Positions 6,232 to 21,284 of a stretch of 64,000 nt of DNA are shown here, in pieces; positions within the stretch are counted from its first letter, which is position 1; every line of letters begins with the position of its first letter. The DNA lies in the NCBI RefSeq assembly GCF_000801335.2, contig NZ_JSEH01000015.1, forward strand, positions 1 to 64,000. Reading direction: 5' to 3'. Source of the DNA: Desulfovibrio sp. TomC (GTDB taxonomy: Bacteria > Desulfobacterota > Desulfovibrionia > Desulfovibrionales > Desulfovibrionaceae). Both the position numbers and the translations under genes were made by a program. Below the pieces are notes generated by a model, which was not told where the DNA came from, did no database searches, and saw nothing but the letters and a program-made list of their open reading frames with translations.

Positions 6232-6852
6232 CTATTTCCCAAATGTTATCCAATGGCCAGCGTCCTCACGGGTAATTGTGAAGTGCTCAATACCGGCGGC
6301 CCGCAAGAACTTGGCGTGGGTTTCCGGTTCCGTCCCCGGCCGTGGCGGTGGAATTCCCTGCGCCCAACGGGGATCGCGGCCGGCCATCTGGCGGCAGATG
6401 GCTTCCCGGATCAATGGCGGCCCAAGTCCGCCGCCGAGATAGGCCCGGCCTTTGGGCGACAAAACCCGGCGGACTTCGGCAAAAGCCTTGGGCAGATCCT
6501 TCCAGAACATGAGGGAACCGCGGCTGACGGCCAGATCGACGCTGCCGTCTTGAAGCGGCAGGGCATGGACATCGGCCAAGAGGGGCACGGCCCGCTTGGC
6601 CAGACCCTGTTGTGCCGCGCCACGAACTGCCGCCTGGAGCATGGCCGGCGACTGGTCAAGCAGGACGGCGAAACAGGCACTGGCAGCCGCCACGGACAGT
6701 CCGAGTTGGCCCCCGCCGCAGCCCAGGTCGAGACACAAGCCGCGCCTGATGCCGGATTGGTAGATAAAAGTGTCGGCATAATACGGGTATAGCGGGGCAA
6801 AGACGTCCCGGCTGATGGCCAGAAAGGCTGCAACATCCTGCTTGTCGCCCAT
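6232..6852 (-). CDS. Class I SAM-dependent methyltransferase (operon A)
   Basis: 206 residues, cytoplasmic. Motif I is GLCLDLGCGGG (about 38-48), followed by LLDQSPAM and DVHALPLQDGSVDLAVSRG, the standard Rossmann methyltransferase order. I chose ATG 6852 because an AGGAGG box sits just upstream; the frame is open further upstream but without a good start. It is the last gene of the seven-gene operon that begins with the TonB receptor. It is a paralogue of the methyltransferase at 17672-18319: both share GIRxGLCLDxGxGG and a VSRGSxxFW segment after motif IV. The methylated substrate is unknown; the context suggests the compound imported by the operon. Confidence 0.85.
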   Translation of the reverse strand: MGDKQDVAAFLAISRDVFAPLYPYYADTFIYQSGIRRGLCLDLGCGGGQLGLSVAAASACFAVLLDQSPAMLQAAVRGAAQQGLAKRAVPLLADVHALPLQDGSVDLAVSRGSLMFWKDLPKAFAEVRRVLSPKGRAYLGGGLGPPLIREAICRQMAGRDPRWAQGIPPPRPGTEPETHAKFLRAAGIEHFTITREDAGHWITFGK

Positions 6853-6925
6853 ACGGCCTCCTGCCTGCGGTCCGTCATCAGCCTCTAGGCTTCCAGAATC
6901 GCCCTGGCCCTCTCTATGCATGCCC

Positions 6926-8074
6926 TCAACCCGCTCCAATCGCCTTGTCCTGGCGGTGGATGACGGCCATGAGCCCCTGGTTGTAGAGGTTTCGGGCAAA
7001 GCACTCGCAGGCGATGTCGCAACCCGTGGTCATGTGCATGAACATGCTGCGGTTGCCAACGGCGATACTGCGGCCCGGATAAGCCTCGCCAATGGTCCCC
7101 GACGGCAAGGCTGTGAAATAGCCTGAGAACGGGTAGGGTTTGCGCTCAATGTCGTCGAGGTAGTAACGGTAGCCGCCGTTGTGTTCAAACACGCGGTGGC
7201 TGCCTGTTGTCAGGGCCAGATACTGGCTGTCGCCCGGTTCGTAGCAGTACCAGCTCCGGCCGTTGCGGCAGGCCGTAAACGGCATTGTGAAATCATCGCA
7301 GCCCAGCCCTTCCAGAAAGGCGATGGCCACCTTTTCCCGGCCAAGTCGGGCCAGGATCGCGTTTTTTACGTCAGTAATTGACGCCACGCCCTCCAGGTTG
7401 GCTGAAACCGGCACAAAGTAGCTTGGGGCCGGCAGCATGACCAGCCGGCGAAGGGATGTGGTGTTGAAGTAGTGGCCAAGCCGGGCCACGGCCATCTGTT
7501 CGGGCAGACGGGTCCCATTCTCCGGGCCGCCGCCAAACAGCTCCAGGATTTCTTCCCGCGTGGCCACCCGCTCCAGACCGGGATGCCCGGTGAGCCGGTC
7601 CATGTCCCGGGGCGAAAGTCCATACAGTCCGGCATAGCGGGCCGACCAGTTGCTGGCTACGGCCAGTCCGTCCAGGCCTGTCAGGTCGATGGGGGTCGCC
7701 GCCTCGGTCATGTCGCCCGTGCCGACAATCACGGTGGTAAAGCCCGACTCCCGAGAAAACCGTTCCACTTCGGCAAAGGCCGCATCGCGCATCTCCGTCC
7801 TCTCGGCCGCGGTCAGCGGCGAATAGCGCGAGGAATAGTACTGCCGGGCATAGGTCAGAAAGGCAAAGCCCGGATTGTACTGCTCTATGAGGTCAAGAGC
7901 CGTGTCGGTCACCCAACTGTTGCCGCGCGGGTCCCGGTCGCCGGGAAAGGGATGACGGGCCAGCACGCCTTTGACCGTGCCGGTGAGCGGCGAATCAGTC
8001 GCTTCGATTTTATGTCCGGTGCGTAGATCCACCACCTGCTGCCACTGCCTTGCATCCAAAATGGCCAGACTCAT
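6926..8074 (-). CDS. Unrecognised 382-residue protein of the uptake/radical-SAM operon
   Basis: I do not recognise the family. No signal peptide or membrane segment, so probably cytoplasmic. The stretch with YGLSPRDMDRLTGHPGLERV and a preceding TVIVGTGDM loosely recalls the C-terminal part of alkaline-phosphatase-superfamily phosphodiesterases, but the N-terminal nucleophile region is missing, so I do not assign it. Near the C terminus is a Cys cluster GCDIACECF (CX3CXC) that could bind metal or an Fe-S centre. The start is ATG 8074, behind GGGGAGGT, overlapping the radical SAM stop (ATGA). Translational coupling to the radical SAM gene suggests the two proteins act together. Confidence 0.8.
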   Translation of the reverse strand: MSLAILDARQWQQVVDLRTGHKIEATDSPLTGTVKGVLARHPFPGDRDPRGNSWVTDTALDLIEQYNPGFAFLTYARQYYSSRYSPLTAAERTEMRDAAFAEVERFSRESGFTTVIVGTGDMTEAATPIDLTGLDGLAVASNWSARYAGLYGLSPRDMDRLTGHPGLERVATREEILELFGGGPENGTRLPEQMAVARLGHYFNTTSLRRLVMLPAPSYFVPVSANLEGVASITDVKNAILARLGREKVAIAFLEGLGCDDFTMPFTACRNGRSWYCYEPGDSQYLALTTGSHRVFEHNGGYRYYLDDIERKPYPFSGYFTALPSGTIGEAYPGRSIAVGNRSMFMHMTTGCDIACECFARNLYNQGLMAVIHRQDKAIGAG

Positions 8075-9078
8075 ATGCGCACCTCCCCAGCGTTCCAGTT
8101 CACCCGCGTGCCGAGCAGGGCGATGCGTCCGCCGCACTGGAGGCAGACGTTGCCCTGGCAGCGGAACATGTCGAGCTTGTCCCCGCCGCAGCCCAGGCTG
8201 TGGCGCGTAATCACTTCCGCGCCGCAGCCGGGACAGCGGGTGCCGACCCACTCGGATCCGATGAAATTGTGGAAATACAGGTAGGGCAGGCTGGTCCGAA
8301 GTTTTTCCAGCCGCTGGTTTATGTCTTCGATATTGGGATAGTCGCGTTTGCTCATCTTGTGGGTCGGCAGCAACCGGAAAACATGCCAGGGGATGTTCGG
8401 GTTGATGTCGGCCAAAATGGCGGCCATGGCATCCAGTTCGTGGTCGTTTTCACCGTCGATGACCGGAGTGGTCACCTCGACGTGGCAAAGCCGGGACAGC
8501 TCGCGGATGTTGCGCACGACCGGGCCGCTGTCGGCAATGCCCAGACATTCGCCGCAAAACGTCGGGTCCAGGCCCTTGAGGCTGACGTTTATAAACGAGA
8601 AGATCTCCCCCAAAAGGGCCGTGGCCAAGGGGGTGGCGTAACCGTTGGTCAGGCAGCCCATGGGCATGTTGGCCGCCTTGGCCGCCCGGGAGACGCGGGC
8701 CAGGGTCGGCAACGACACTGTGGGCTCATTGATGGAGAAGACGATGGAATGGCACCCCTGCTTGCGGGCCAGGGCCACGAGTTGTTCGGGACCGATGTCG
8801 AGCAGGATGTCGGTCAGGGAAGCCGGGTCTTCCTTGGCCGCGTAGGCATTGGCGCAGTAGCGGCAATCCAGGTTGCAGCCGGCCGTGCCGACCACCATGC
8901 ACCGACTGCCGGGGTAGGCGTGGTAAAAGGGAATCGTTTCCACCCGGGACACGGCATAGGCGCACCACTTGTCCGGGAAGCGCTCGACAAGCTGGCCATC
9001 GGTGTTGGCATACATGCGGCAAAAGCCGTGCCGGCCCTCTTCGAGGCGGCAGTACCGCTCACAGTAGTTGCATTGCAT
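8071..9078 (-). CDS. Radical SAM enzyme, AmmeMemoRadiSam/PflA-like (operon A)
   Basis: 335 residues. The radical SAM CX3CX2C triad is GCNLDCRYC (Cys 68, 72, 75), which holds the 4Fe-4S cluster that cleaves S-adenosylmethionine. Four further Cys at 3, 6, 10 and 20 lead the protein, as in AmrS-type enzymes, and a C-terminal zinc-ribbon-like set (CPGC at 282, CLQC at 312) closes it. Start ATG 9078 places these Cys at exactly the same residues as in the paralogue at 15857-17662. The gene follows the ECF transporter T gene and overlaps the next gene by four bases. The substrate is unknown; an oxygen-sensitive modification of an imported molecule is inferred. Confidence 0.88.
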   Translation of the reverse strand: MQCNYCERYCRLEEGRHGFCRMYANTDGQLVERFPDKWCAYAVSRVETIPFYHAYPGSRCMVVGTAGCNLDCRYCANAYAAKEDPASLTDILLDIGPEQLVALARKQGCHSIVFSINEPTVSLPTLARVSRAAKAANMPMGCLTNGYATPLATALLGEIFSFINVSLKGLDPTFCGECLGIADSGPVVRNIRELSRLCHVEVTTPVIDGENDHELDAMAAILADINPNIPWHVFRLLPTHKMSKRDYPNIEDINQRLEKLRTSLPYLYFHNFIGSEWVGTRCPGCGAEVITRHSLGCGGDKLDMFRCQGNVCLQCGGRIALLGTRVNWNAGEVRI

Positions 9079-9253
9079 GGCATGTCCTTTTTGGCGTTGC
9101 GGCGGCGGTCGACTCGACCGGTCCACCGTCAGGCGTCACGTGGTATGGCATGGCCCCAGGTGCCAATCTCCGTCCAGGCTGACGCGGCATTGATTTTCTC
9201 CTTGGCGACGGACAGGGACGGCAAGCGCCGCAAATGTTGCGGGCCGGCCTGCC

Positions 9254-9979
9254 TCAGGCTCCCGGGCGCAGCCACTGCCAGGCAAAACCCGTCCAGGGCA
9301 GGACTGCGGCAAGGTAAAAACAGGCGTCTCCGACGCTCAGGGGTGTGCGGACGACCGCCTCCGGCCGGTCGCCGGCCAGACCCCGCAGTTCCAGGGACAG
9401 GGCCAATTCCGTGGCCCGGCGCATCTGGGCCAGAAAGACCGGTACAAAAAGCGGCAGGAACTGCGAAGGGCGCATCAGCCGTTTGGCCTCAAAGCCGCGC
9501 GCCCGCTGCACCTCCACCACCCGCAGGCTCATGGCGAACATGGCCGGCAAAAGGCTGGTTAAGGCTGAGACGAACAGGACGGCCTTGCCCGGCAGGCCAA
9601 GGCTTCGAAGCGACAGCAGCATGTCGGAAAAACTCGTCCACTTGACCACCAGGACATCGACCAACAGCACGATGAGAAGGCGCAGGGAGAACACTCCGAG
9701 CCAAGCCAGGCCAAGCAGCATCCCCTCGCGCCAGTTGGCCGCTTTTTCGATGCCGCCCAGGAGAAAAAGGAGCAGCAGGGTCGGCAGCCCCAGGACCGAG
9801 ACGCCGAAAATCAGGCTGACGCTGCGGTCCCAGACGCCGGAAACCAGGAGTAGGATGGATACGGCTACGACAATGGCCAACAGGATGCGCCAGTCCTCAC
9901 AGAGAAAAGCATAGGCGCACAGGGAAACGGCAAAGAGGAATTTGCTCACCGCGCTGGCGCGGCGCAGGCTACGCACCAT
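9254..9979 (-). CDS. ECF transporter T component (transmembrane coupling protein)
   Basis: About 241 residues with five or six hydrophobic segments. Near the C terminus are two Ala-Arg-Gly-type motifs, QRARGF and LELRGL, the coupling-helix motifs by which EcfT contacts the ATPase dimer. It passes ATP hydrolysis energy from the A-A' subunit to the substrate-binding S component in the inner membrane. ATG 9979 has a GGAGGG box and overlaps the ATPase stop by 11 bases. The frame remains open upstream inside the ATPase gene, but that extension is antisense-like proline-rich sequence and not part of the protein. Confidence 0.88.
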   Translation of the reverse strand: MVRSLRRASAVSKFLFAVSLCAYAFLCEDWRILLAIVVAVSILLLVSGVWDRSVSLIFGVSVLGLPTLLLLFLLGGIEKAANWREGMLLGLAWLGVFSLRLLIVLLVDVLVVKWTSFSDMLLSLRSLGLPGKAVLFVSALTSLLPAMFAMSLRVVEVQRARGFEAKRLMRPSQFLPLFVPVFLAQMRRATELALSLELRGLAGDRPEAVVRTPLSVGDACFYLAAVLPWTGFAWQWLRPGA

Positions 9980-11393
9980 CGCGTCCCTCCGGGTTGGGGA
10001 CATCGGAAACGATGCGGCCGCTGTCCAGCCGGACAATGCGGCTGGCGGCCATGGACGCAAAGGCCTGTTCGTGGGTGGCCACGAGTACGGCCGCCCCTTG
10101 GCCGGCCCGATCGAGCACGGTTTGGGCCATAACGGCCATGGAGGCGTTATCCAGGCCCGTGGTCGGTTCATCCAGGCAAAGGATCGTCGGATCGGCCACC
10201 AGTACCGAGGCCAGGCACAGGCGGCGTTTTTCCCCGAAACTCAAGGAAAAGGGCGAGCGCTCCAGCATCCGGTCCAGCCCAAGTCCGGCCAGCTCCCGGG
10301 TCACGCAGGCCGTGCGGGCAGGCTCGGGTATATCCAGGTTGGCCAGCCAGTAGCCGCACTCTGCCGCCACGGTATGGGCAAAAATCTGTTCATCGGGATT
10401 CTGAAACATCAGTCCCACGGCGCGGCCACAGGTCAGGCCAGCAGCCAGGGCCACGCGCCCGGTCCGGGGTTTGGCCAGGGCCTTGGCCAGGCGCAGCAGG
10501 GTGGATTTGCCGGAACCGTTTGGCCCCATGAGGGCCACGACCTCACCCGACCGCACGGCCAGATTAATGTCGTCAAGCACCTTGTCGGTCGTGCCGTAGC
10601 CAAAAGACACCCCTTCAAAGGCCAGCGTCGGCGCGTCCGCTGCCTGGCGCACGGCTGGGCCCGCCGTCCAGGCCGGCGATGAAAGCCGGCCCGGCGGCAG
10701 GGGACGGCTGCCCGGAAACGCTGCGGCTGGGCCGTCATAGACGAGCCGGCCGTTTTCCAGTGCCAGATAGCGGTCAGCGAAACCGGACAACCGGTCCAGA
10801 TCGTGCTCGATGACCATGACGACCAGCCCGGTTTCGCGGCTGAGCCTGTCGAGATGGGCAAAGAGCCGGTCGGCCGTGGCCGCGTCGAGATAGCTCGTCG
10901 GTTCGTCAAGGAGCAGCACCTTGGGCCGGATGGCCAGCATGGACAGGACTGCGGTCAGCTGCTTCTGGCCAAGCGACAGCGTGCCCAGGGCGATCTCGGC
11001 CCGGCCGGCCAGGCCGTAGAGGCCAAGCAGTTCGATTGCTGCTGTGCGGCACTCGGCCTCGGCCATGCCCCTGGCCCGCAGCCCCAGGGTCATTTCCTCG
11101 CTGATCGTGGCGCAAAAGAGCTGGGCTTCTGGGTTTTGGCCGACGATGCCGGCAAATCCGACCGGAGCGCCGGCCAGACCGTCACAGCCGTTAAGGACCA
11201 GCCCGCCCTTGGTGCGACCAGCCAGGGCCAGCCGGTGCGCGCCGCACAGATGATAGCCCAGGGTGGACTTGCCGGCCCCGGACGGTCCGACGATGCCCAC
11301 CCGTTCTCCCGGCCGGATCGTCAGGGTCACGTCGGCCAGGACCGGCTCGTCCGTGCCGACCGGGGTAAACGTCAGTTCCCGACAGGCAATCAT
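9969..11393 (-). CDS. Fused ECF transporter ATPase (A-A', two ABC domains)
   Basis: 474 residues with two ABC ATPase domains in one chain. Domain 1: Walker A GPSGAGKST (about 36-44), signature LSLGQKQ, Walker B LLLDEPTSYLD. Domain 2: Walker A GPNGSGKST (about 290-298), signature LSFGEKRR, Walker B LCLDEPTTGLD. This is the energising module of energy-coupling-factor importers for vitamins and transition metals. The ATG at 11393 overlaps the S-component stop (ATGA), and the gene is followed by the T component, so the whole importer is encoded here. A dedicated (group I) arrangement with its own S component suggests a single specific substrate. Confidence 0.93.
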   Translation of the reverse strand: MIACRELTFTPVGTDEPVLADVTLTIRPGERVGIVGPSGAGKSTLGYHLCGAHRLALAGRTKGGLVLNGCDGLAGAPVGFAGIVGQNPEAQLFCATISEEMTLGLRARGMAEAECRTAAIELLGLYGLAGRAEIALGTLSLGQKQLTAVLSMLAIRPKVLLLDEPTSYLDAATADRLFAHLDRLSRETGLVVMVIEHDLDRLSGFADRYLALENGRLVYDGPAAAFPGSRPLPPGRLSSPAWTAGPAVRQAADAPTLAFEGVSFGYGTTDKVLDDINLAVRSGEVVALMGPNGSGKSTLLRLAKALAKPRTGRVALAAGLTCGRAVGLMFQNPDEQIFAHTVAAECGYWLANLDIPEPARTACVTRELAGLGLDRMLERSPFSLSFGEKRRLCLASVLVADPTILCLDEPTTGLDNASMAVMAQTVLDRAGQGAAVLVATHEQAFASMAASRIVRLDSGRIVSDVPNPEGRDGA

Positions 11394-11968
11394 GGCAGGC
11401 GCAGCATGGCGACAATGTGCAGCCCGGAAATCCGTTTCCAGACGACCAGGGCCAGATAGACGCCAAAGCCGTTGATGACGAGGGAAGTGAGGAGCGAAAT
11501 ACCGAAAAAGACCTGGGTGGCCGTGGCCCAGGGCATCCCCATGGCCACGCGCACGACCATGGCGGCGCAGGGGCCAAGGATGCCGCCGACCAGGATGGCC
11601 ACGTAGGCCCGGCCCACAGGCATCCGGGTTAGCAGCAGAGAAAACAGGAGATCGAACACCACCCCCTGGGTCAGGGCCGGTATCAGTTTCATGAAGCCGG
11701 GCTGGCCCCCGGCCGCCGGCATAAGCACGGCGGCCAGGAGTCCCCAGGCCAGTTCGAAACAGATAAGCGTGCCGAACCGGTCAAGCATCAGCCGGACCAG
11801 GACCATGAGCATGACCGAGACCACCATCTCCAGCCGGGCCACCTCGTGGATGGCCGTCACCTGGAGGGCGGTCTTGAAGACCAGCCCCCAGCCGAAGTCC
11901 AGGGCCACGACCGAGGCGAAAAACACCACCTGGGCCGTGGACAGTTCCTTGAGTCTTAGAACTTGCAC
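11390..11968 (-). CDS. ECF transporter S component, substrate unknown
   Basis: 192 residues, very hydrophobic, with about six membrane helices, the size and form of an ECF substrate-binding (S) subunit. The start is GTG 11968, overlapping the TonB receptor stop by 13 bases. I cannot assign a vitamin or metal: the N-terminal His-containing helix that marks CbiM/NikM cobalt-nickel types is not evident, and no thiamin, biotin or riboflavin signature was recognised. Direct coupling to an outer-membrane TonB receptor is telling, because such receptors bring in molecules too big or too scarce for porins, such as corrinoids and metal chelates. Confidence 0.8.
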   Translation of the reverse strand: MQVLRLKELSTAQVVFFASVVALDFGWGLVFKTALQVTAIHEVARLEMVVSVMLMVLVRLMLDRFGTLICFELAWGLLAAVLMPAAGGQPGFMKLIPALTQGVVFDLLFSLLLTRMPVGRAYVAILVGGILGPCAAMVVRVAMGMPWATATQVFFGISLLTSLVINGFGVYLALVVWKRISGLHIVAMLRLP

Positions 11969-14055
11969 GTCAGCTCCAAAAAGAGCATCCGGCCGGGGTT
12001 TTCTCCATTGGAATTGCGATAATCGATATAACGGTGGTCCAGGATGTTCTGGGCCGACAGGGACAGCTCCATGTGCTCGCCGTATTCAAAGAAATCGAGA
12101 TTGCGCCATATCTTGCCGTTGAGCAAGGCATGGGGCGATATTGTGGTGTTGCTGGTGTTGATGTCGTCGCTGTACATTTCACCGACATACTGCACGGCCA
12201 ACTTGTTGTTGATGTATTTGTTGAGCCAGGTAAATCCGACGTTGGCCGAGTTCTGCGGCGTATAGGAGAGCAGTTTCCCGACCAGATCCGGCCGGCCGGG
12301 GAAATCGGTGATCCGGGAATCATTGAAGGTGTAGTTGGCAAAGAGCGAGAATTTCTTGAGCACGTCGATGTCCATGAACTTGAACGGATCGTACTCGGCA
12401 TTGAGTTCCATGCCCCAGATCTGGACTTCGCCGACGTTTTGCTTCTGGCTTATGCCCTTGGATACGTTGACGTAGTACTGGAAGTCATGGCCCACAGAGA
12501 AGTAGCCTGAACCGGACAGCTTCAGGTTGTCCAGGGGCTGGTAGTCGGATCCGACTTCGAATGTATCGAGGTTTTCCGGTCCGAGGCTCGGGTTGGATAT
12601 TTTGTAGCCGCCCTTCATCTTGCCGGTGCGGTACATGTCGTCGAGCAGCGGAGCCCGGAAGGCATGGGCATAGGACAGGTAGGCGCTTAAATTGTCCATG
12701 AAGAAGTATTTGGCCGAGGCGCGCGGACTCCACTGGTCCCAGGTGTGGTCGGAATAATTGCTGGTATAGGAGTTCAGCGAACTGATGTTGGTGTCGTAGC
12801 GGCCGTCATAGGTGGTGGCGTTGTCGTAACGAAGCCCGGCCAGGAAGATCAGCTTGTCGTCGAGAAAACGCATCTGGTCTTGGAGAAAGCCGCCCAGCGT
12901 GCGGATCTTACCGTAATCCGTGGCAAAGGTGATGGTGCCGGTGCGGGAGTAGTCCGTGCCGTCCATCAGGCCGTCACGGTAGTCGAAGCCGGCGGTGAAG
13001 GTGTGCGGCCCCCAGACCCGGGAGACGTTGGTCATGACGCCGAGTTCCTGGCGATTGACCTTGGAGTCGGTGCGGCTGTAGGAATCGATGTACTTTTGTA
13101 CGTCGCTGGAATCCGTGATGCTTTCCTGGGTCCGATCGTAATTGGTGTCGTTAAAGTAGACGTTTATGAGTCCTGTCCAGCCTTCGTAGCCGAGGTTCAG
13201 CCGTCCCTGCCAGGCCCCGGTGTCGTAGGCGCGATGCACGCCGTTGTAGGCAAAGATTTCTTTGCCTTCGCCAACGCTCTGATTATCCTTTGTATACTGC
13301 AACTCAAGGCTATTGGACTCGTTAAAGTCCCAGCCAACTTTGCCGTTGATGGTCTTTTCCGTGATGTAGTTCTTCACGGTGTACCGGGTTTGCTCGTCGC
13401 TCGGAACGTTTTTGTAGCCTGGGGAATCATGGTAAAAGGCCGATACCCGGCCCCACAGGCCCTTTTTTTCCTCGGCGGTGCGAAATCCGGCGATGCCGCG
13501 CAACTGCCAGTCGTCATAGGTGCCATACTGGGTGGAGACGCGGCCCTCGGCAATTTTGGTGGGCTTTTGGGTGATGATGTTGATGACGCCGCCCATGGCG
13601 TTGTTGCCGTAAATGGAGGCCGCCGGCCCTTTGAGAATTTCGATGCGCTGGACATCTTCCATGTTGATCCGGTTCCAGTTGACGTCGCCCATGTCCGAGG
13701 AGTTCATGGGCACGCCGTCAAGTAAAACCAGCGTGCGTCCCTGCTCGTTGCCAAGACCGCGCAGGGTCAGGGTGGACTTGAAGCTGTAGGGGCCGTTGGC
13801 CCGTTCCAGGTGCGCCCCGGAGATGTAGGAGAGGGCCTCGTCCACGGTCTGGACGGGCATTTCTTTGAGATCCTCGCGGCTTATGACCTCGACCCGGCCG
13901 GGTATGCTCTTGAGCGGTTCTTCGGTGCGGGTGGCCGTGACCACCATCTCATCCATCTCATGGTTCGCGGCGTCGCCTTTGTCCGGTCCAGCGGCCAAAA
14001 GCGGCAGCGGCAGGGCCAAAATCGCCGAAATGGCCAAGCCAACAATCCCTCTCAT
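11956..14055 (-). CDS. TonB-dependent outer-membrane receptor
   Basis: 699 residues. A signal peptide (MRGIVGLAISAILALPLPLL) is followed by a TonB-box-like segment (DEMVVTATRTEEP), then the plug domain with TLTLRGLGNEQGRTLVLLDG and GPAASIYGNNAMGGVINII, then a 22-strand-type barrel ending in aromatic F (LELTCKF), as outer-membrane proteins do. BtuB/cirA-like class. ATG 14055 is chosen for the G-rich ribosome-binding site and the signal peptide. It is the first gene of operon A and divergent from tonB at 14496, which presumably powers it. The ligand is unknown; corrinoid, siderophore or other metallophore are the usual choices. Confidence 0.94.
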   Translation of the reverse strand: MRGIVGLAISAILALPLPLLAAGPDKGDAANHEMDEMVVTATRTEEPLKSIPGRVEVISREDLKEMPVQTVDEALSYISGAHLERANGPYSFKSTLTLRGLGNEQGRTLVLLDGVPMNSSDMGDVNWNRINMEDVQRIEILKGPAASIYGNNAMGGVINIITQKPTKIAEGRVSTQYGTYDDWQLRGIAGFRTAEEKKGLWGRVSAFYHDSPGYKNVPSDEQTRYTVKNYITEKTINGKVGWDFNESNSLELQYTKDNQSVGEGKEIFAYNGVHRAYDTGAWQGRLNLGYEGWTGLINVYFNDTNYDRTQESITDSSDVQKYIDSYSRTDSKVNRQELGVMTNVSRVWGPHTFTAGFDYRDGLMDGTDYSRTGTITFATDYGKIRTLGGFLQDQMRFLDDKLIFLAGLRYDNATTYDGRYDTNISSLNSYTSNYSDHTWDQWSPRASAKYFFMDNLSAYLSYAHAFRAPLLDDMYRTGKMKGGYKISNPSLGPENLDTFEVGSDYQPLDNLKLSGSGYFSVGHDFQYYVNVSKGISQKQNVGEVQIWGMELNAEYDPFKFMDIDVLKKFSLFANYTFNDSRITDFPGRPDLVGKLLSYTPQNSANVGFTWLNKYINNKLAVQYVGEMYSDDINTSNTTISPHALLNGKIWRNLDFFEYGEHMELSLSAQNILDHRYIDYRNSNGENPGRMLFLELTCKF

Positions 14056-14246
14056 AATCCCCCCTTGCGTGTTGCTCCATCGCCTGCTTTGGACACGACG
14101 TCCGTTCTTCGCTCTTTTTGCCTGTCGTCGGGACAGTGTTTGGAACCGGATTCCGAGCCGCAAACGCCGGAATCAGCGGCCGCAGGAGAGAGGCTTCCCC
14201 TGAGGCCTGCCGAGGCTGGCAGCGAAACACACGGCACAGAGTCCAT
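14056..14246 (-). promoter_or_regulatory. Long leader of the TonB-receptor operon, potentially structured
   Basis: About 190 bases separate the predicted transcription start from ATG 14055. The RNA could form several stems, among them GATTCCG/CGGAATC and CTGTC/GACAG. I looked for cobalamin, TPP and FMN riboswitch consensus boxes and found none. It may be an unclassified leader or simply untranslated sequence. Confidence 0.35.
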
Positions 14247-14251
14247 TGCTC

Positions 14252-14279
14252 TTTATACTGTCACGGCAATTTCAAACAA
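14252..14279 (-). promoter_or_regulatory. Predicted sigma-70 promoter of operon A
   Basis: On the minus strand TTGTTT (14279-14274), a 16-base spacer, and TATAAA (14257-14252). The -10 is close to consensus. It abuts the inverted repeat at 14280-14303 and reads toward the TonB receptor. Confidence 0.5.
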
Positions 14280-14303
14280 CAGAATACTGTGTTGAGTATT
14301 CTG
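14280..14303. promoter_or_regulatory. Perfect inverted repeat, likely operator
   Basis: CAGAATACT and AGTATTCTG form perfect 9-base arms around a 6-base spacer. The site touches the predicted -35 box of operon A and lies between it and the divergent tonB gene. This is the placement of a regulator binding site controlling one or both directions. It does not match the Fur or NikR consensus as I know them. Confidence 0.5.
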
Positions 14304-14370
14304 GCGAGTGTATGATTGTGTATAGCAAAACATGAGACCGGTTGTGGCTGCTAAAAGAACGGGCTCATGC

Positions 14371-14399
14371 TTGACACTGCGGACTTAATAGACAAGAAT
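14371..14399 (+). promoter_or_regulatory. Weak candidate promoter for tonB
   Basis: TTGACA at 14371 is a perfect -35; 17 bases later AAGAAT is a poor -10. It lies about 100 bases before the tonB start. Offered as a candidate only. Confidence 0.3.
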
Positions 14400-14495
14400 T
14401 TCAATTACTGCAATAGATCACGTTTCAATGTTTGTCCGTGATCGCTGGCGTAGCAGAATGTACTGTCGCTGTTTTAAAAACTTTCGTGACACTGG

Positions 14496-15587
14496 ATGAA
14501 TGCCATGCAGCTCAGCCATGATGCCAACGCGCCTGTTCCCGATCCGGCAGGGCTAGGCGACGTCTCCCCAGAGTTGCGCTCCTGGCCGGGGTCTGCATCC
14601 CAAGCCGCCTGGGCCTTTACTCTCGACCCAGCCGTCCTCCGGGATTGCCTGCTGGAACGACCTGACAGGCCGGCTGCCGGCGCGCGGTGGTGGCCCGGGC
14701 TGTTGGCTTCAGCCGGACTGCACGGACTGGTTGCGGCTGCGCTGGTCGTCTGCGCCGTGCTTGCCGGCCCGGCGCCAGAACCGCCCTTGGCGGTCATTGG
14801 GCATTTCGACCTGGGAGGGCTTGACGGCGGCGGTCCGGTCGGCGGCGACGGACAGGACAGTGGTTTGGACGGCGCGGCCCGAACGGCCACGGCGGTTTCC
14901 CCCACCGAAGCCGCCACGTCTGTCGAAGCTGCCGCGCCAACTTCGCAACCCAGTGCCCGGACTGAAACCGATCCGCCGGCCGAGCCAACACCCCAGCCGA
15001 TCCCTGAGCCGCCGGCCGTGCCCACGCCCGATCTCGACCGTCGGACCCCGCCGCCCAAACCACGAGCCACGACGAAGGCCCACCCCAAAGCAGTGGCGGC
15101 CAGAGCACAGCCAGCCGGGCCGCCGTCGGCCCAACCGGCTGAGACCGAGGCCGGGCATGTCTCGGCGACAGGCACGGGCTCCGGGGCGAATGCCGGGGAA
15201 GGCAACGGACAGGGACGTTTGGGCGAGGGGCCGGGCAAAGGTCTGACTCCCGGGGCCGGCCCTGGGGGCAACGGCGACGGCCAGGGGCACGGCGGAATGT
15301 ATGTCGGCGAATTCGGCCGGGGAGACGGGCCGACGTTCCGGCATCGTTCGCCGTTGCGCTATCCCGACGCCGCCAGGCGGACAGGCCAGGAGGGCAAGGT
15401 GCGCCTTCGCCTGGAGATCGATGCCGAAGGCGTATTGCGAAATGTTTCGGTGGTCGAACACACCGGACTTGAGTTCGTGGAGGAGGCCCTGCGGGCCATC
15501 AAGGCCTCGACGTTTTACCCGGCCAAGCGACAGGGCCGGCCAGAGCCCTGCCATGCCTTGCTGACCATCCGCTTTGCCCTGGGCTGA
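14496..15587 (+). CDS. TonB family energy-transducing protein
   Basis: 363 residues. A cytoplasmic head of about 65 residues, one membrane helix (about 68-90), a long Pro/Ala/Gly-rich periplasmic linker and a C-terminal TonB_C domain (last ~85 residues: YPDAARRTGQEGKVRLRLEI, then FVEEALRAIKASTFYPA). Carries proton-motive energy to outer-membrane receptors, presumably the one encoded divergently at 11956-14055. It is longer than the usual ~240 residues, with an extended head and linker. No exbB or exbD is in the window, so these must be supplied from elsewhere. ATG 14496 or the in-frame ATG 14505 could be the start; neither has a clear ribosome-binding site. Confidence 0.9.
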   Translation: MNAMQLSHDANAPVPDPAGLGDVSPELRSWPGSASQAAWAFTLDPAVLRDCLLERPDRPAAGARWWPGLLASAGLHGLVAAALVVCAVLAGPAPEPPLAVIGHFDLGGLDGGGPVGGDGQDSGLDGAARTATAVSPTEAATSVEAAAPTSQPSARTETDPPAEPTPQPIPEPPAVPTPDLDRRTPPPKPRATTKAHPKAVAARAQPAGPPSAQPAETEAGHVSATGTGSGANAGEGNGQGRLGEGPGKGLTPGAGPGGNGDGQGHGGMYVGEFGRGDGPTFRHRSPLRYPDAARRTGQEGKVRLRLEIDAEGVLRNVSVVEHTGLEFVEEALRAIKASTFYPAKRQGRPEPCHALLTIRFALG

Positions 15588-15811
15588 TCGGGCCTAAGCG
15601 CCCAAGTTCCCTTGAACAAACACAAGACCGGTATTCACCTGCTGTTGGTCGAAACATTCCGGTTCGCGCCAGTCAGGAACACGTGCGTCTACAATCTTTG
15701 ACCAGCCCAGGAGCACCTTTTCCACTCCAGGGGCGGCGCCATGCCCTCGTGCTGTGTTCGGTCATTTCAATGATGGTTTTCCAAGCGCCGAGGCTTGAAT
15801 TTATTGTTTTT

Positions 15812-15842
15812 ATTCACAAAAACAGAAATATTTTTTGTGAAT
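15812..15842. terminator. AT-rich hairpin between convergent operons
   Basis: Perfect 11-base arms (ATTCACAAAAA and its complement) around a 9-base loop, between the end of tonB and the end of operon B. The arms give T-rich runs on either strand, so it may end transcription in both directions, though the stem is poor in GC. A protein-binding role is also possible. Confidence 0.5.
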
Positions 15843-15856
15843 GCGACACGAGCAGG

Positions 15857-17662
15857 TCAACCGGCAGCGCTGGGAGCAACCTCGGTGAAGCGCCAGAATC
15901 GGTTCGGTTTGGCAAAGGAACGGTTGATCGTGGCGACCGGGAAATCCTGCCCGAAAATATGGCGATGGTAGTCGCGCGCATCCTTTTCGATATCGAATGA
16001 GTACCGGTCCGGATGGAGCATGTTGGCCAGATAACGCAGGCCAAGCACCCATTTGGGCGCGCCGAAATCGCTGGTCGGAATAGGCGCAGTATGTATGCGA
16101 CCGGAACGCACCGCTGACACATCGAGCCCGGATTCCCTGCACTCCTGGCAAAACGCTTTGGGATCGTTGGATATAAATGAGGAAATGAAAATGACCTCCG
16201 GGTCGAGGTGTTTGAAGGTTGCCGCCGGAATGGTAATGCCGGGCCTGCCTTCCAGTTCGAGAGACGTGTTGACGCTGTTCCCCCCGGCGACGCCGACCAG
16301 GTGATTTTCGAAACGGTCCCCTTTGATGGCAAAAAGCGGTTTGCCCATGGCGTAGTAGGTTCGAGGCCGGCACGCGGGGGGAATGTCGTTGGCCAGCACC
16401 GGGGCGATCATGGTCGCTAAATAGTCAACCAACCAAGCAGCCTTGTCGTTGCGACCGAGCACGTCGCCGAAGTGCCGGATGAGTCTGAAATAGCCGTCAA
16501 TGGTTTGGATGTCCTGGTGCAGTTGCGGGAGCATACGCTTTGCCAGCAGATGTTCCCAGACCCCGACCACCTGGGCCTGGGTGGTTGCGCCCATAGCCAG
16601 ACACATGGATTCGACGATCTCAAGCCCCCGGGTAAATGGATAGCCGCCCTGGAAGGCTCCTTCCCGCAAGGCCGGGGGGGAGACAGGGCCCTTGATGACC
16701 GGGTCGCTGCCGCAGCGCGCACAGGCCACGGCGTTGTCGGCCACGCCCGGGGCCAGCGAGAGCAGGCGTGCACCCATGGGGCCGTAGAAGTCCCGGTGAA
16801 CGATGGTCTCGCCGCACGCGGGGCAAACCGTATCCAGCCCCCGCGTCCCCGGGGTGTTGAAGACATAGGTAAAGGGCAGGATGCGGCGCAGCTCGGCGGC
16901 AAAGGCCTCGGTGTCGGCAATGGGTGGTTCGAGGGCCGGGTCGGCCGATTCGATGGGGACAAACCGCATGAGTTGCAAGACGAGGGTTGGGGATATCCCG
17001 GCCAGGGTTTGGGCCAGTAACCGGGTATCCTGACGGTTGTCGCTGCGGTCCATGCAGGCCACTTCCACGTGCACGCCATGGGCAACGAGCAACCGGATGT
17101 TACGCAGGACCACGCCCGGATCGCCGCCGCCGCAGGCGCGCACCGACGCGGCAGTCATCCCCTTGACGCCGATGTTGATGCAATCGAGAAGTCCGATAAG
17201 CGGTTGCAAAGACGTTTCGGTAAAATAGGCATTGGAGGCACAGCCGACCAAAAGTCCCTGGCTTTTGGCGGCCCGGGCCACGCGCACAAAGGTCTGATAG
17301 GAGGCCAGCGGGTCGTTCATCAAAAAAGCAATGCCCTTGCATCCCTTGGCCACGGCCATGGCCACCACGCTTTCCGGGGAAAGCTGGCGCAAGGCCGGGC
17401 TGTCCGGCCGCATTTCCCGGGCGGTGACCGTGGAAATGCAGCCTGGGCAGTCGAAGTTGCACCCGATGGTGCTCACTTGCAGGAACGGCGCGCCAGGATG
17501 GAAATGGAGCAGCGGGATGGTTTCCACGGAGATGGGGCTGGCGACCAGATAACGGTCGGGGAAGCGTTCGACCATGGCCTCCCCGATATTGGCGTAGCGG
17601 CCGCAGGCGCCGTTGGCTCCGGCCGGAACGTGGCAACTTCGCTCACAAATGGGACACAGCAT
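15857..17662 (-). CDS. Radical SAM enzyme fused to half of a periplasmic-binding-protein fold
   Basis: 601 residues. The N-terminal ~320 residues match the operon A radical SAM enzyme: Cys 3, 6, 10 and 20, the triad GCNFDCPGC at 68, 72 and 75, and a zinc-ribbon (CPAC about 280, CARC about 314). Residues ~335-575 instead resemble the C-terminal lobe of FecB/BtuF-type binding proteins; WVLGLRYLANMLHP parallels LGVKWLANALYP in the binding protein at 20226-21284. There is no signal peptide, so the binding lobe is cytoplasmic. ATG 17662 is preferred over GTG 17671 because it aligns the Cys residues with the paralogue. Last gene of operon B. Substrate capture or delivery by the lobe is inferred. 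Confidence 0.85.
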   Translation of the reverse strand: MLCPICERSCHVPAGANGACGRYANIGEAMVERFPDRYLVASPISVETIPLLHFHPGAPFLQVSTIGCNFDCPGCISTVTAREMRPDSPALRQLSPESVVAMAVAKGCKGIAFLMNDPLASYQTFVRVARAAKSQGLLVGCASNAYFTETSLQPLIGLLDCINIGVKGMTAASVRACGGGDPGVVLRNIRLLVAHGVHVEVACMDRSDNRQDTRLLAQTLAGISPTLVLQLMRFVPIESADPALEPPIADTEAFAAELRRILPFTYVFNTPGTRGLDTVCPACGETIVHRDFYGPMGARLLSLAPGVADNAVACARCGSDPVIKGPVSPPALREGAFQGGYPFTRGLEIVESMCLAMGATTQAQVVGVWEHLLAKRMLPQLHQDIQTIDGYFRLIRHFGDVLGRNDKAAWLVDYLATMIAPVLANDIPPACRPRTYYAMGKPLFAIKGDRFENHLVGVAGGNSVNTSLELEGRPGITIPAATFKHLDPEVIFISSFISNDPKAFCQECRESGLDVSAVRSGRIHTAPIPTSDFGAPKWVLGLRYLANMLHPDRYSFDIEKDARDYHRHIFGQDFPVATINRSFAKPNRFWRFTEVAPSAAG

Positions 17663-17671
17663 GGCAACCAC

Positions 17672-18319
17672 CTATCGGATCGCCGTCTCGGCTGAGACGG
17701 GCTTACGAATTTGCACCCACACGCCGTAGGGATCGGCCAACACCGTGGCCTGGGGCACCTGGGCCTTGGCCAGCACCGTGTCGAGGTATCCCTCCTCTTT
17801 CCAGGCGTTTCGCGTGTCTGCCTGGCCTTCCCCTGTCCACTTGGGGCGCATGGCCCGGACCTCTTCAAGCGTTTGGTAGTGGCTGAAACCACAGCCGATA
17901 AGCCCGTAGCCGCCCGGAGCCAGTACGCGGAGGATTTCCCGAAATGCGGCCACATGGTCCGGCCAAAACGGGATCGAGCCCCGACTGACCAGCAGGTCCA
18001 CCGTTGCGTTCTCCACCGGCATGGCCGTGACGTCGGCCTCCAGAAAGCGGAACCGCTCCGGGGCCAAGCCATGGTGCACAACATTTTCCCGGGCCATGGT
18101 AAGGACGTCCGGCGCGGCGTCCAGGCCGAGCATGGCGCAGTCGGTGATCTTGGCCAGTTCGATCAGCACCGCAGCGCCGCCAGTGCCGACATCCAGGCAC
18201 AGCCCGTTTCGGATGCCGCAATCGTCTACAATCTGCCGGGCAAGCAGGGGATACATGGCGGCAAACCGGTGGGAAGCAGTGTAGCGGTAAAAATCCTTGT
18301 CCGTGTCCGTTTTGTCCAT
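17672..18319 (-). CDS. Class I SAM-dependent methyltransferase (operon B)
   Basis: 215 residues. Motif I GLCLDVGTGGA (about 39-49), then LGLDAAPDVL and DVTAMPVENATVDLLVSRG. Paralogue of the operon A methyltransferase (206 residues), sharing the unusual GIRxGLCLD entry and VSRGSxxFWxD segment, so both probably act on related substrates. ATG 18319 follows an AGGAGC box and lies 10 bases after the ABC ATPase stop; its own stop overlaps or abuts the start of the radical SAM fusion gene. The frame is open upstream inside the ATPase gene but lacks a good start there. Cytoplasmic. Confidence 0.86.
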   Translation of the reverse strand: MDKTDTDKDFYRYTASHRFAAMYPLLARQIVDDCGIRNGLCLDVGTGGAAVLIELAKITDCAMLGLDAAPDVLTMARENVVHHGLAPERFRFLEADVTAMPVENATVDLLVSRGSIPFWPDHVAAFREILRVLAPGGYGLIGCGFSHYQTLEEVRAMRPKWTGEGQADTRNAWKEEGYLDTVLAKAQVPQATVLADPYGVWVQIRKPVSAETAIR

Positions 18320-18329
18320 ACGGCTGCTC

Positions 18330-19178
18330 CTATTGGGGGCGTCGGGCTTCGTGGTTGATTGGCCGGGCCACGTCCTGGGAGGAAGTCCGATCCGGCCCGC
18401 TGCGGCCGATACGATCGGGAATGCAGACCCGGATGGTTTCATTCATGGAAAATACCGAGATATCCGCATCGTAGAGGCGGCTTAAGTTGTCGCGCGTAAC
18501 GACCGCACGGGGCGCGCCGTCGGCGACCACCTGTCCCTCGCGCAGCAACAGCACGTGGTCCGCCACCCACAGGGCGTGGTCTGGGCAGTGGGTGGTCATG
18601 ACGCAGGTATGCCCCTCGGCGCACAACTCCTGGAGGATGGCCAGAAATTTTGCCTGATGCCCGAAATCCAGGCCGGTTATGGGTTCGTCGAGCACCAGGG
18701 CCTCGGCCTGCTGGGCCAGAGCCCTAGCCAGCATGGTCAGTTGCCGCTGGCCGCCGCTTAAGCGCGTGACGGGAATATGGGCCAGATGCCCGATGGAGAA
18801 TCGCTCCAGCGCCGCCTGGGCGATGTCCCGGTCCTTTTGGGCGGGACGTCCGAAAACCGAAGCGCCGACGGCCCGGCCCATCAACACCATTTCCAAGGCG
18901 GTGTAGGCAAAGGGGATATGATGCAACTGGGGCACGTAGGCCACTCGCCGGGCCATCTCCGGTCTGGACAGGGCATGGGCCACGCGGCCGGAAACTAGCA
19001 AACGGCCAGCGGCCGGGGTAAGCAGCCCGAGCATGAGCCGCAAGAGGGTGGTCTTGCCGCAGCCGTTTGGTCCCAACAGACAGACAAGTTCTCCCGCCCC
19101 TAGCTGAAACGAGACCCGGCGCAGAACGGGCGTGCCGTTGTAGGCAAAGGCCAGGTCTTCGGCCGCAAACACAGACAT
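18330..19178 (-). CDS. ABC transporter ATPase, iron-chelate/corrinoid type (FecE/BtuD-like)
   Basis: 282 residues. Walker A GPNGCGKTT, Q-loop YVPQLHH, signature LSGGQRQ, Walker B ALVLDEPITGLD and switch His in MTTHCPDHA. A typical FecE/FhuC/BtuD ATPase with a C-terminal extension of about 45 residues that I cannot interpret. ATG 19178 lies just past the permease stop. With the permease and binding protein upstream it forms a complete inner-membrane importer for large metal-containing compounds such as siderophores, haem or corrinoids. Confidence 0.92.
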   Translation of the reverse strand: MSVFAAEDLAFAYNGTPVLRRVSFQLGAGELVCLLGPNGCGKTTLLRLMLGLLTPAAGRLLVSGRVAHALSRPEMARRVAYVPQLHHIPFAYTALEMVLMGRAVGASVFGRPAQKDRDIAQAALERFSIGHLAHIPVTRLSGGQRQLTMLARALAQQAEALVLDEPITGLDFGHQAKFLAILQELCAEGHTCVMTTHCPDHALWVADHVLLLREGQVVADGAPRAVVTRDNLSRLYDADISVFSMNETIRVCIPDRIGRSGPDRTSSQDVARPINHEARRPQ

Positions 19179-19179
19179 A

Positions 19180-20229
19180 TTACCCCCAGGACTTCCGGGC
19201 GTTTCGCAAAACAAGCGGAAAAAACGGGATGCCGACCAGGGCGGTCAGGATGCCCAGGGGGATTTCCACGCCAAAGGCCAGACGGGACACATCGTCCACC
19301 AGCAACAGGTAGATCCCGCCAAGCAGGGCGGCAGTGGGCAACAGCGCCCGGTTGCTCGGGCCGACCAGCATGCGTCCGGCGTGGGGGATGATAAGCCCCA
19401 CCCAGCCGACCAGTCCGGCGATGGAGACGGTGGCGGCGCAAAGGATCGTGGAGACGGCGATGAGTCCCAGCCGGACCCGGCCGACGTTGAGCCCCAGGCT
19501 TTTGGCTTCCTCGTCGCCAAGGCTCAGCAGGTCGAGCTGGCGGGACATGAGAAACAGTCCGGCCATGCCGAGGCAAAAGATCGGAGCGGCCCGGCCGACC
19601 GTCCCGGCATCGGCCCGGGACAGGCCGCCCATCAACCAATAGGTGATGGCCGGGAGTTGGTCAGTCGGATCGGCCACATATTTGACCGCCGAGAGCAGGG
19701 CTGTGAACAGGGCTGTGCTGATGACGCCGCCCAGGATGAGCAACAACAAGCGGTCGCCCTGGCATACGCGGGCCAGCGTCAAGGCCAGCCCCACAGCGAC
19801 AAGCCCCCCGCCAAAGGCGCAGCCCTGGATGGCCAGCCAGGAACCTTTCGCCAGCATGCCCAGGGCCGCGCCAAAGGATGCGCCGGCCAGGACGCCAAGC
19901 AGCCCCGGCGAGACCAGGGGATTGACGAACATGGACTGGAAGGCCGCGCCTGAGGTGGAAAGGGCCGCGCCGACCAGAATCGCGGCCATAAGGCGTGGGG
20001 CGCGGATGTCGAAGAGCACGATCCTAACCAAGCCCAGTCGCGTATCCTCGGGGGGCGTCACCCTGCCCAGCGCGTGGAGCAGGGCGCGCCACTGATCGGC
20101 TAGGGCGATGGGATAGTTGCCGGCCGTCAGCGACCAGACGGTTGCCGCCAGCAAGACGATGCCCAGCAGCCAGGGGGTCACGAACACCCTGGCTGCCGGA
20201 TGGGAAACCTCGGAGTGGTCGGACCTCAC
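19180..20229 (-). CDS. FecCD/BtuC-family ABC transporter permease
   Basis: 349 residues, about ten membrane helices. Family hallmarks are RAPRLMAAILVGAALSTSGA, NPLVSPGLLGVLAGA and the late segment GLVGWVGLIIPHAGRMLVG. The homodimer forms the channel for siderophore, haem or vitamin B12 import. GTG 20229 overlaps the binding-protein stop (GTGA), indicating translational coupling in operon B. Confidence 0.93.
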   Translation of the reverse strand: MRSDHSEVSHPAARVFVTPWLLGIVLLAATVWSLTAGNYPIALADQWRALLHALGRVTPPEDTRLGLVRIVLFDIRAPRLMAAILVGAALSTSGAAFQSMFVNPLVSPGLLGVLAGASFGAALGMLAKGSWLAIQGCAFGGGLVAVGLALTLARVCQGDRLLLLILGGVISTALFTALLSAVKYVADPTDQLPAITYWLMGGLSRADAGTVGRAAPIFCLGMAGLFLMSRQLDLLSLGDEEAKSLGLNVGRVRLGLIAVSTILCAATVSIAGLVGWVGLIIPHAGRMLVGPSNRALLPTAALLGGIYLLLVDDVSRLAFGVEIPLGILTALVGIPFFPLVLRNARKSWG

Positions 20230-21284
20230 GGCTTGCCGGCGTCCTTTTGCCCCAAAAACTCCCGGGCTTGGGCTTCGGTCACGTCTTCGTTCCAGAAGAG
20301 CTTGAAGAAATCCCGGGTCTCCCGGACCATGTCATAGGGGAACACCTCAGGGTACAGGGCGTTGGCCAGCCATTTCACACCCAACAGGCGCATGAAGGAT
20401 GGCGGACGGTCAAACCAGTTCAGCGGCAGATCGGGGATATTGAGCACCCGGCCTTGTTGCACCGCCGGGACCGCGGCCCAAAGGGGAGAGGTCAGGATCA
20501 TGTCGCGGCACTTGGCGTCCTGGGCCAGGATAACCTGGGGCGCGTAGCTGAGCACGGTTTCCATGGTGACCTTGTCCATGCCGTACCGCCGGGTCTGGGG
20601 GGCCGGGTGGACATTGCGGCCGCCGGCCAGTTCCAGGACCAGGGTGTGAAAGGACCCCCGGCCGTCTGTGTAAAGCCCGTCGCCGCCTTCGGCATAGTAG
20701 ACGGTCAGGCGTTTGTCCTCGGGAATGGAAGCCACGCCTTTGTCAATGTCGGCCAGGGTCCGCTCGGCATAGGCGGCGAGCGCCTCCCCCCGGTCCTTTT
20801 TGTCAAACACTTCGCCCAAGAGGCGCAGGGCCTTGGGGTAGGCCGCAAGCGATTCACTCTCAATGTGCACGACCGGAATGCGCATGGTCGTAAAAAACGC
20901 TTCGAAATCTTCATTGCCCTTGGCCATGGACCCGCTGATGACGCAATCCGGCGCAGCCTTGAGCAACGCCTCCTTGTTGGGCGTCATACCCTGGCCGAAA
21001 AAACCGCCAAGCACCGGCAGATCACGGGCGCACGGGGCAAACCAGTCCCGGGCCGTCTTGGTCTGGGGGTAATTCCAGCCCACCAGCAGACAGGGATCAA
21101 GGGCGTAGACGAGCAACGCATCCGGCGGGGAAAGCGCATAGACCCGTTTGGGAAAGTCAGGTGTCGTCACGGTCTGCCCGGACATATCCGTGAAGGTTGC
21201 AGCCGCTGCAGGTGCGACAGCCAGGCAACAAAGCAGGAGCAAGATCAGGATCAGACGGAGACAAGGAGGGGCAGGGCGGTGCAT
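20226..21284 (-). CDS. Periplasmic substrate-binding protein (FecB/BtuF-like)
   Basis: 352 residues. The signal peptide MHRPAPPCLRLILILLLLCC ends near APAAAA; Cys residues in the hydrophobic core make a lipoprotein possible but not clear. The mature part starts FTDMSGQTVTTPDFPKRVYAL, the usual entry of helical-backbone (type III) binding proteins, and ends with a lobe containing LGVKWLANALYPEVF. It hands ligand to the adjacent FecCD-like permease. ATG 21284 has an AAGGAAG box. First gene of operon B; its C-terminal lobe is the one duplicated in the radical SAM fusion at the operon's end. Confidence 0.92.
   Translation of the reverse strand: MHRPAPPCLRLILILLLLCCLAVAPAAAATFTDMSGQTVTTPDFPKRVYALSPPDALLVYALDPCLLVGWNYPQTKTARDWFAPCARDLPVLGGFFGQGMTPNKEALLKAAPDCVISGSMAKGNEDFEAFFTTMRIPVVHIESESLAAYPKALRLLGEVFDKKDRGEALAAYAERTLADIDKGVASIPEDKRLTVYYAEGGDGLYTDGRGSFHTLVLELAGGRNVHPAPQTRRYGMDKVTMETVLSYAPQVILAQDAKCRDMILTSPLWAAVPAVQQGRVLNIPDLPLNWFDRPPSFMRLLGVKWLANALYPEVFPYDMVRETRDFFKLFWNEDVTEAQAREFLGQKDAGKP

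Follow-up and report, generated by a model that had tools for sequence, protein, structure and literature searches.

Candidate molybdenum- or tungsten-responsive import-and-process operons with paralogous radical SAM enzymes in Desulfovibrio sp. TomC

Two minus-strand operons, here called systems A and B, flank a plus-strand tonB gene in a 64,000-nucleotide stretch of the Desulfovibrio sp. TomC genome (contig NZ_JSEH01000015.1, positions 1 to 64,000; the window, to whose full length all window coordinates refer). We put the probability at roughly 0.57 that both are molybdenum- or tungsten-responsive import-and-process cassettes, in which uptake of a metal chelate is followed by anaerobic processing. 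Their gene content, conservation, module swapping and shared regulatory site (before system A only in the window, before system B in relatives) were established by computation. We infer that the cargo probably carries molybdenum or tungsten and, at even odds, that the radical S-adenosylmethionine (SAM) enzymes process it, every chemical step proposed below being reasoned in the same way. Many anaerobes cannot do without molybdenum and tungsten, which are difficult to acquire in sulfide-rich settings. The operons are real and conserved, and most likely form an acquisition system for these metals of a kind that we did not find described in the open-licence literature, in which no published description of such a cassette was recognised.

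System A (14055 down to 6232) reads, in minus-strand order, TonB-dependent receptor, putative EcfS, double energy-coupling factor (ECF) ATPase, EcfT, the radical SAM enzyme rS1, a protein that we call AP and the methyltransferase MT1. System B (21284 down to 15857) reads FecB-type binding protein, one FecCD permease, ATPase, the methyltransferase MT2 and the radical SAM enzyme rS2. A first-pass annotation of this DNA had described twin minus-strand operons with different importers around one tonB, each carrying a paralogous radical SAM enzyme and class I methyltransferase, and gene calls and family matches bear this out: rS1 and rS2 are 35% identical over 303 residues (E 3.6e-55), and MT1 and MT2 34% identical over 219 residues (E 7e-31). 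The cysteines it had placed at 3, 6, 10, 20, 68, 72 and 75 are found there in both radical SAM enzymes (read from starts 9078 and 17662), and both methyltransferases contain GIRxGLCLD and VSRGSxxFW. Two items had been overlooked, namely the AP gene and a binding-protein domain at the end of rS2. Family matches (Table 1) place the importer of system A among ECF transporters, with CbiQ, two ABC_tran stretches and a cbiO score above its cut-off, and that of system B among type II (FecBCD/MolBC-A) importers, by its permease, binding protein and ATPase.

A metal chelate had been among the cargoes first suggested, and a regulatory site narrows this option to molybdenum or tungsten. The gap between tonB and the receptor gene contains the inverted repeat ATCACG-N14-CGTGAT, the only exact core match in the window, which resembles the predicted molybdate-regulator site cgGTCACg-N14-cGTGACCg that the accessible part of PMC545781 places before mod operons of two Desulfovibrio genomes. 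With at most one mismatch, the site occurred in 8/8 system A gaps and 4/6 system B upstream regions, compared with a background of 3 in 291,830 positions, and spacers of 8 to 20 other than 14 gave at most one locus per set. Four of the five system B upstream regions other than that of the window have the site. In L039 (genome G007; L and G numbers are our own handles for loci and genomes), it stands 90 bp before an rS2 gene without Fec genes, and the L038 site departs from the full published consensus at a single position. Of 14 regions compared with shuffles, p<=0.05 was reached in 11 by the core site, in 8 by the full published consensus, in 2 by the PerR consensus and in none by the Fur, NikR and Zur consensuses. 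A molybdenum/tungsten (ModE/TunR-type) site is present upstream of system A and not of the window's system B. Regulation of system A by a site of this type is well supported, and system A very probably belongs to a molybdenum/tungsten regulon.

The 5.07 Mb genome has exact matches to RTCACG-N14-CGTGAY at three places; when one mismatch was permitted, the forward pattern gave 73 matches and a reversed control pattern 16. The first exact site is that of the tonB/receptor gap. The second lies, together with a one-mismatch site, at the start of an integrase-TOBE gene (L161 6688-7881, G000 C5; PF00589 and two TOBE stretches), which we take to be like TunR and which diverges from a cytochrome operon rich in CxxCH motifs. 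The third is 131 bp upstream of a porin-like open reading frame (L162 5374-6960, G000 C7), which was named by eye and has no match in Pfam; a nitrogenase-type gene (PF00148) lies about 3 kb away. A copy with one mismatch stands before two genes for a molybdopterin-dependent hydroxylase, the second of which has molybdopterin-binding domains. One mod-type operon (modA recognised by PF13531, modB and modC by eye) has two-mismatch copies that begin 223 and 143 bp ahead of its first gene. As a separate observation, a relative of the porin-like frame (L035 3066-4919) is divergent from system B of G097, and the interval between their probable starts contains two one-mismatch sites.

The binding protein of system B appears, by sequence, to be related to molybdate-binding MolA. 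A profile of 14 relatives found as its top PDB matches 4pag from Sulfurospirillum (8.4e-108), 4ovk (1.4e-45) and MolA 3psa (3.3e-35), followed by 4hn9 (5.1e-31), YiuA (2.8e-25), IsdE (8.3e-20) and B12-binding proteins (8.1e-15 at best), MolA being the best match with a known ligand as taken from the structure title. According to the accessible part of PMC4031551, MolA binds molybdate and tungstate, and MolBC-A is a type II system. For system A, the receptor is the genome's only PF00593 match at E<=0.001, and the putative EcfS, itself with no Pfam or NCBIfam match, has copies 92% and 76% identical in L040 and L041.

Both rS1 and rS2 fall in the radical SAM superfamily, with PF04055 matches and CxxxCxxC at Cys 68, 72 and 75. 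They also match the AmmeMemoRadiSam radical SAM model (TIGR04337) at 149.5 and 95.4 bits, both below the cut-off of 220, and their likeness therefore partly reflects a wider enzyme branch. Phylogenies were computed for the radical SAM enzymes, binding proteins and methyltransferases with a minimum match length for each row (one of 88 binding-protein rows was dropped by length), and all contain long branches that may mislead. FastTree split rS1 and rS2 from other AmmeMemo-type relatives with support 100, the rS2 sequences forming one clade (100), the other relatives another (100) and the rS1 sequences nearly one, with five radical SAM-AP fusion sequences falling outside. Given this separate clade, a canonical AmmeMemo function was rejected. 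No Pfam match to AMMECR1 or Memo was found among the 13 scanned operon and tonB proteins, the part of the genome searched for them. The relatives of MT1 and MT2 constitute one family, apart from MT3 (support 100), in which A- and B-linked members are mixed.

The AlphaFold2 (AF2) model of rS2 (pLDDT 88.5) divides into two parts. Residues 33-267 form a domain like that of pyruvate formate-lyase-activating enzyme (Z 19.1, root-mean-square deviation (rmsd) 2.9, 223 aligned; NifB Z 17.1), and residues 346-577 form a binding-protein-like domain with fold matches of Z 14-20, among them 4hn9 (19.8), YiuA (18.2) and MolA (17.7). About 220 of 320 residues align, indicating that this domain is shortened. 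The rS2 binding domains form one clade (support 100), which the tree joins to four binding proteins from A loci (87) by a long-branch join. In L138, a DUF169 protein (9875-10795) is encoded immediately 3' of rS2 and is followed by a formate/nitrite transporter.

AP belongs to a protein family without a name: neither AP itself nor nine further members gave a Pfam match, and AP itself gave no NCBIfam match. Its AF2 model (pLDDT 92.5) best matched phosphonoacetate hydrolase 1ei6 at Z 9.9 and rmsd 3.7, with 215 of 382 residues aligned, on a scale where best Z values of 7 to 8 are common without kinship. Because model residues 1-245 fall on 135-407 of the 1ei6 chain, the model suggests an alkaline-phosphatase-type core in permuted order. 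Neither the AP profile searched against PDB sequences nor a circularly permuted profile searched against PDB and Pfam gave a supporting match, and the permuted order is thus read from the fold alignment. By eye, the metal-binding residues of the alkaline phosphatase superfamily are not evident in AP, which may therefore not be a phosphatase.

Among 99 genomes of the family, this one included, full-length rS2 relatives (49-79% identical) occurred in five others; system A was found in G080 (where EcfT was not called by the script used) and G058:C9, system B in G097, G031 and G091, and rS2 with no Fec gene called beside it in G058:C26 and G007. In a sample of 395 genomes from the phylum, AP was present in 6, and 12 had a match to the C-terminal domain of rS2 (E<=1e-15); of these 12, four were weak matches to ordinary binding proteins. 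Scanning a genome collection with an AP alignment gave 58 loci, for example in Solidesulfovibrio, Sporomusa, Megamonas, Desulfobacula and Geobacter relatives, the hosts comprising Desulfobacterota, Firmicutes and metagenome-assembled genomes of other phyla. From these loci and the G genomes, 39 sequences were chosen for alignment A2, with L074 excluded because of a stop in the stretch.

The proposed linkage to importers held for system A, since 33 of the 36 loci flanked by 5 kb on both sides had a FecCD, EcfT or EcfS match no more than 5 kb away (45/58 overall, many loci being cut short); the loci that failed were L088, L092 and L093, of which L092 has ECF-type and L093 FecB-type matches. By comparison, no FecCD match was found in seven loci (L042-L048, 11.6-20 kb) around other radical SAM relatives of the branch, which we take for canonical AmmeMemo enzymes. 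In system A, the methyltransferase is not a steady partner of the radical SAM enzyme: an MT1/MT2 relative lay within 6 kb in 17/58 loci, whereas the radical SAM enzyme lay within 1.5 kb of AP in 54/58. The two are joined in one reading frame in L060-L062. Single-frame fusions of AP to a radical SAM enzyme without the N-terminal cysteines were seen in L060, L061, L062, L111-L114 and L119, along with TonB, receptor and Fec genes.

The importer beside AP varies, being ECF in the Solidesulfovibrio group and Fec in most others, and the clade of the window's FecB (support 99) unites 14 binding proteins from A loci (Sporomusa and others) with 9 from B loci. In four Desulfobacteraceae loci (L099, L101, L102 and L103) both radical SAM types are present, with a distance of 1.3 to 3.7 kb between AP and a full rS2, which share one strand. 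Systems A and B thus recur both apart and together, and chance neighbourhood was rejected. In L107 (Moorella), a binding-protein-dependent permease (BPD_transp_1, 306-1762) and an ATPase lie upstream of rS1-AP, and another importer type may therefore replace Fec or ECF there.

Neighbour clusters, each given its name from the Pfam matches of one or two of its members, comprised TrmO_N/FmdE (12 of the 58 loci), FmdE (12), a third methyltransferase family (16) and DUF364-type proteins (8). A CobW/HypB-type GTPase was present in L068 and L136, PBP_like regulators beside L087, L092 and L136, MoeA in L089 (the MoeA_N search covering ten genomes), and a ModA-type protein in L105 and, with a MoCF_biosynth gene, in L136. 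As no background was computed for these molybdenum-related neighbours, they are only consistent with a molybdenum/tungsten assignment. Two further arrangements were observed. TrmO_N is joined to an FmdE-like stretch in L072 (12960-13790; FmdE 21.4 bits, just under the cut-off) and L068 (7332-8216), an arrangement that recurs by radical SAM-AP genes in Sporomusa and relatives, and a deaminase-fold protein (dCMP_cyt_deam_1) with a signal-like N-terminus, encoded at 11097-11819 of L102 and in relatives, adjoins AP in several Desulfobacula-type loci.

We propose that shortage of molybdenum or tungsten would derepress the operons, and that the TonB-energised receptor would admit a complex bearing either metal, to be transferred across the inner membrane by the ECF transporter (system A) or the MolA-related FecBCD transporter (system B). 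In the cytoplasm, a radical SAM enzyme would act on the imported complex: in system A this would be rS1 working with AP, and in system B rS2, into which a copy of the importer's binding domain is built; the methyltransferase might modify the ligand or the product, and the metal would be handed on. The strongest hint that the enzyme encounters imported cargo is the binding domain fused to rS2. The earlier idea of import coupled to cytoplasmic processing, with related compounds for both operons, is retained in this scheme. Its corrinoid option is dropped: at the Rfam gathering threshold, the window and 13 related loci gave no riboswitch, the only matches being a tRNA gene in the window (46214-46286, minus strand) and a tRNA-Sec (L077). 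A bolder version, which we regard as doubtful, would have anaerobes salvage organically bound molybdenum or tungsten, perhaps the pterin cofactors of others, via TonB-linked uptake, with rS2 or rS1-AP stripping off the metal by a radical route. The findings point to a widespread acquisition route for molybdenum and tungsten using outer-membrane receptors and radical enzymes, and a direct prediction is that the operons should respond to molybdate or tungstate.

Several observations weigh against this proposal. The best site upstream of the window's system B has 3 mismatches (p 0.36), and L036 is similar (p 0.31). The R in the core motif, in place of the published G, was chosen after the window site had been seen, and that site has 3 mismatches to the full 16-base published consensus (p 0.016). 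Several sites are homologous, and the site counts are therefore not independent. Around ten PF13531 (ModA-type) genes, with about 1.5 kb of flank, no site with at most one mismatch was found; nine lack a pair comparable to the two-mismatch pair at the tenth, and the scattered two-mismatch matches in the vicinity of five others appear to be due to chance. At the integrase-TOBE gene, the exact site overlaps the start of the longest reading frame and might instead belong to the cytochrome operon that diverges from it. Haem and siderophore models head the receptor's NCBIfam matches, and all 25 of those listed score below cut-off. For the FecB profile, MolA scores barely above 4hn9, which carries an iron-complex annotation, with iron-siderophore YiuA next, and for the fold of the rS2 binding domain both are tied with MolA. 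Outside Desulfovibrionaceae, molybdenum-related neighbours are few and come without a background rate, and PBP_like genes, present in 48/48 genomes searched and not mapped to loci, carry little weight.

The main rival, which we consider unlikely, is that the radical SAM enzyme, AP and methyltransferase build a metallophore or cofactor that binds molybdenum or tungsten, the importers retrieving its loaded form. The recurrence of a further methyltransferase family and of TrmO_N, FmdE and DUF364 genes in the loci speaks for such synthesis, and the accessible part of PMC2954201 proposes DUF364 in the making of flavin, pterin or siderophore-like compounds. However, neither an exporter nor a peptide synthetase was recognised among the 13 scanned operon and tonB proteins, a scan not aimed at short precursor genes, and the binding-protein domain at the end of rS2 suits an enzyme to which cargo is delivered.

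It is more improbable still that the operons answer molybdenum scarcity by importing a different metal, such as iron or vanadium to supply an alternative nitrogenase. Alternative nitrogenases are repressed by molybdenum in known bacteria, one of the three exact sites lies near a nitrogenase-type gene as described above, and the FecB profile also matches iron-siderophore binders; against this, MolA scores best among the profile's matches with known ligand, and the Fur consensus stood out in none of the 14 regions. Uptake of a tetrapyrrole (corrinoid or haem) followed by radical ring processing is very improbable: the receptor resembles TonB-hemin and BtuB models, and in known bacteria cargo of this kind is transported by ECF and by FecBCD systems, but no cobalamin riboswitch was found at gathering threshold in the window or the 13 loci, B12-binding proteins and haem-binding IsdE score far behind MolA with the FecB profile, and the regulatory site is of molybdate type.

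Coordinates of the preferred molybdenum/tungsten cassettes are collected in Table 1. Elsewhere in the window, a Phosphoglycerate-mutase-type metalloenzyme (PF01676, PF10143) is encoded at 25897-27258.

Table 1. Genes and repeats of systems A and B in the window (gene starts are inferred for MT1, EcfT, the receptor, MT2 and the FecE-type ATPase)
Feature	Position	Strand	Basis
MT1, class I methyltransferase, last gene of system A	6232..6852	-	Methyltransf_11 68.2 bits
AP protein, 382 aa, constant partner of the system A radical SAM enzyme	6926..8074	-	no Pfam/NCBIfam match
rS1, radical SAM enzyme	8071..9078	-	Radical_SAM (PF04055) 61.4 bits; AmmeMemoSam_rS 149.5 bits
EcfT, transmembrane coupling protein	9254..9979	-	CbiQ PF02361 50.4 bits
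EcfAA', double ECF ATPase	9969..11393	-	two ABC_tran stretches; TIGR01166 cbiO 231.2 bits, cut-off 211.8
Putative ECF S component, 192 aa	11390..11968	-	position and hydrophobic sequence; no family match
TonB-dependent outer-membrane receptor	11956..14055	-	PF00593 162.3 bits, PF07715 101.4 bits
Weaker N14 inverted repeat	14260..14285		3 mismatches in window; 2 in L040
ATCACG-N14-CGTGAT site	14417..14442		matches core of published Desulfovibrio molybdate-regulator site (PMC545781)
Further N14 repeat, 2 mismatches	14465..14490		2-mismatch copies also in L040, L063
tonB	14496..15587	+	TonB_C 65.3 bits
rS2, radical SAM domain fused to shortened FecB-type binding-protein domain	15857..17662	-	Radical_SAM (PF04055) 45.4 bits; folds
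MT2, class I methyltransferase	17672..18319	-	Methyltransf_11 65.3 bits
FecE-type ATPase	18330..19178	-	ABC_tran 110.3 bits
FecCD-type permease, single gene	19180..20229	-	PF01032 268.3 bits
FecB-type periplasmic binding protein	20226..21284	-	PF01497 83.5 bits; profile of 14 relatives matches MolA 3psa, E 3.3e-35

Known systems resemble these operons in part. By best NCBIfam match, rS1 and rS2 share the branch of the AmmeMemoRadiSam enzymes (TIGR04337), from which they differ by their scores below the model cut-off and their separate position in FastTree. HutW/ChuW represents anaerobic haem processing, in which a radical SAM enzyme works on a metal chelate after its import. The action proposed here is alike in outline, whereas rS1 and rS2 are not of that enzyme family by best match and no haem evidence was found. 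A tungstate-responsive regulator family was reportedly described in Kazakov 2013. Likeness to such systems, and to the predicted Desulfovibrio molybdate regulon of Rodionov 2004 (PMC545781), lies in the inverted-repeat core with its N14 spacer and in an integrase-TOBE gene of this genome that carries an exact site; the accessible part of the latter source mentions an integrase-MOP chimera in the modABC cluster. The sites in that part of the source all stand before mod transport operons, and it names no TonB, ECF or radical SAM members. Finally, system B is like MolBC-A (HI1470-72) of Haemophilus influenzae in its FecCD-type permease, FecE-type ATPase and apparently MolA-related binding protein. 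It differs in its coupling to two further enzymes, one of the radical SAM type and the other a methyltransferase, in the nearby tonB and in the binding domain fused in rS2.

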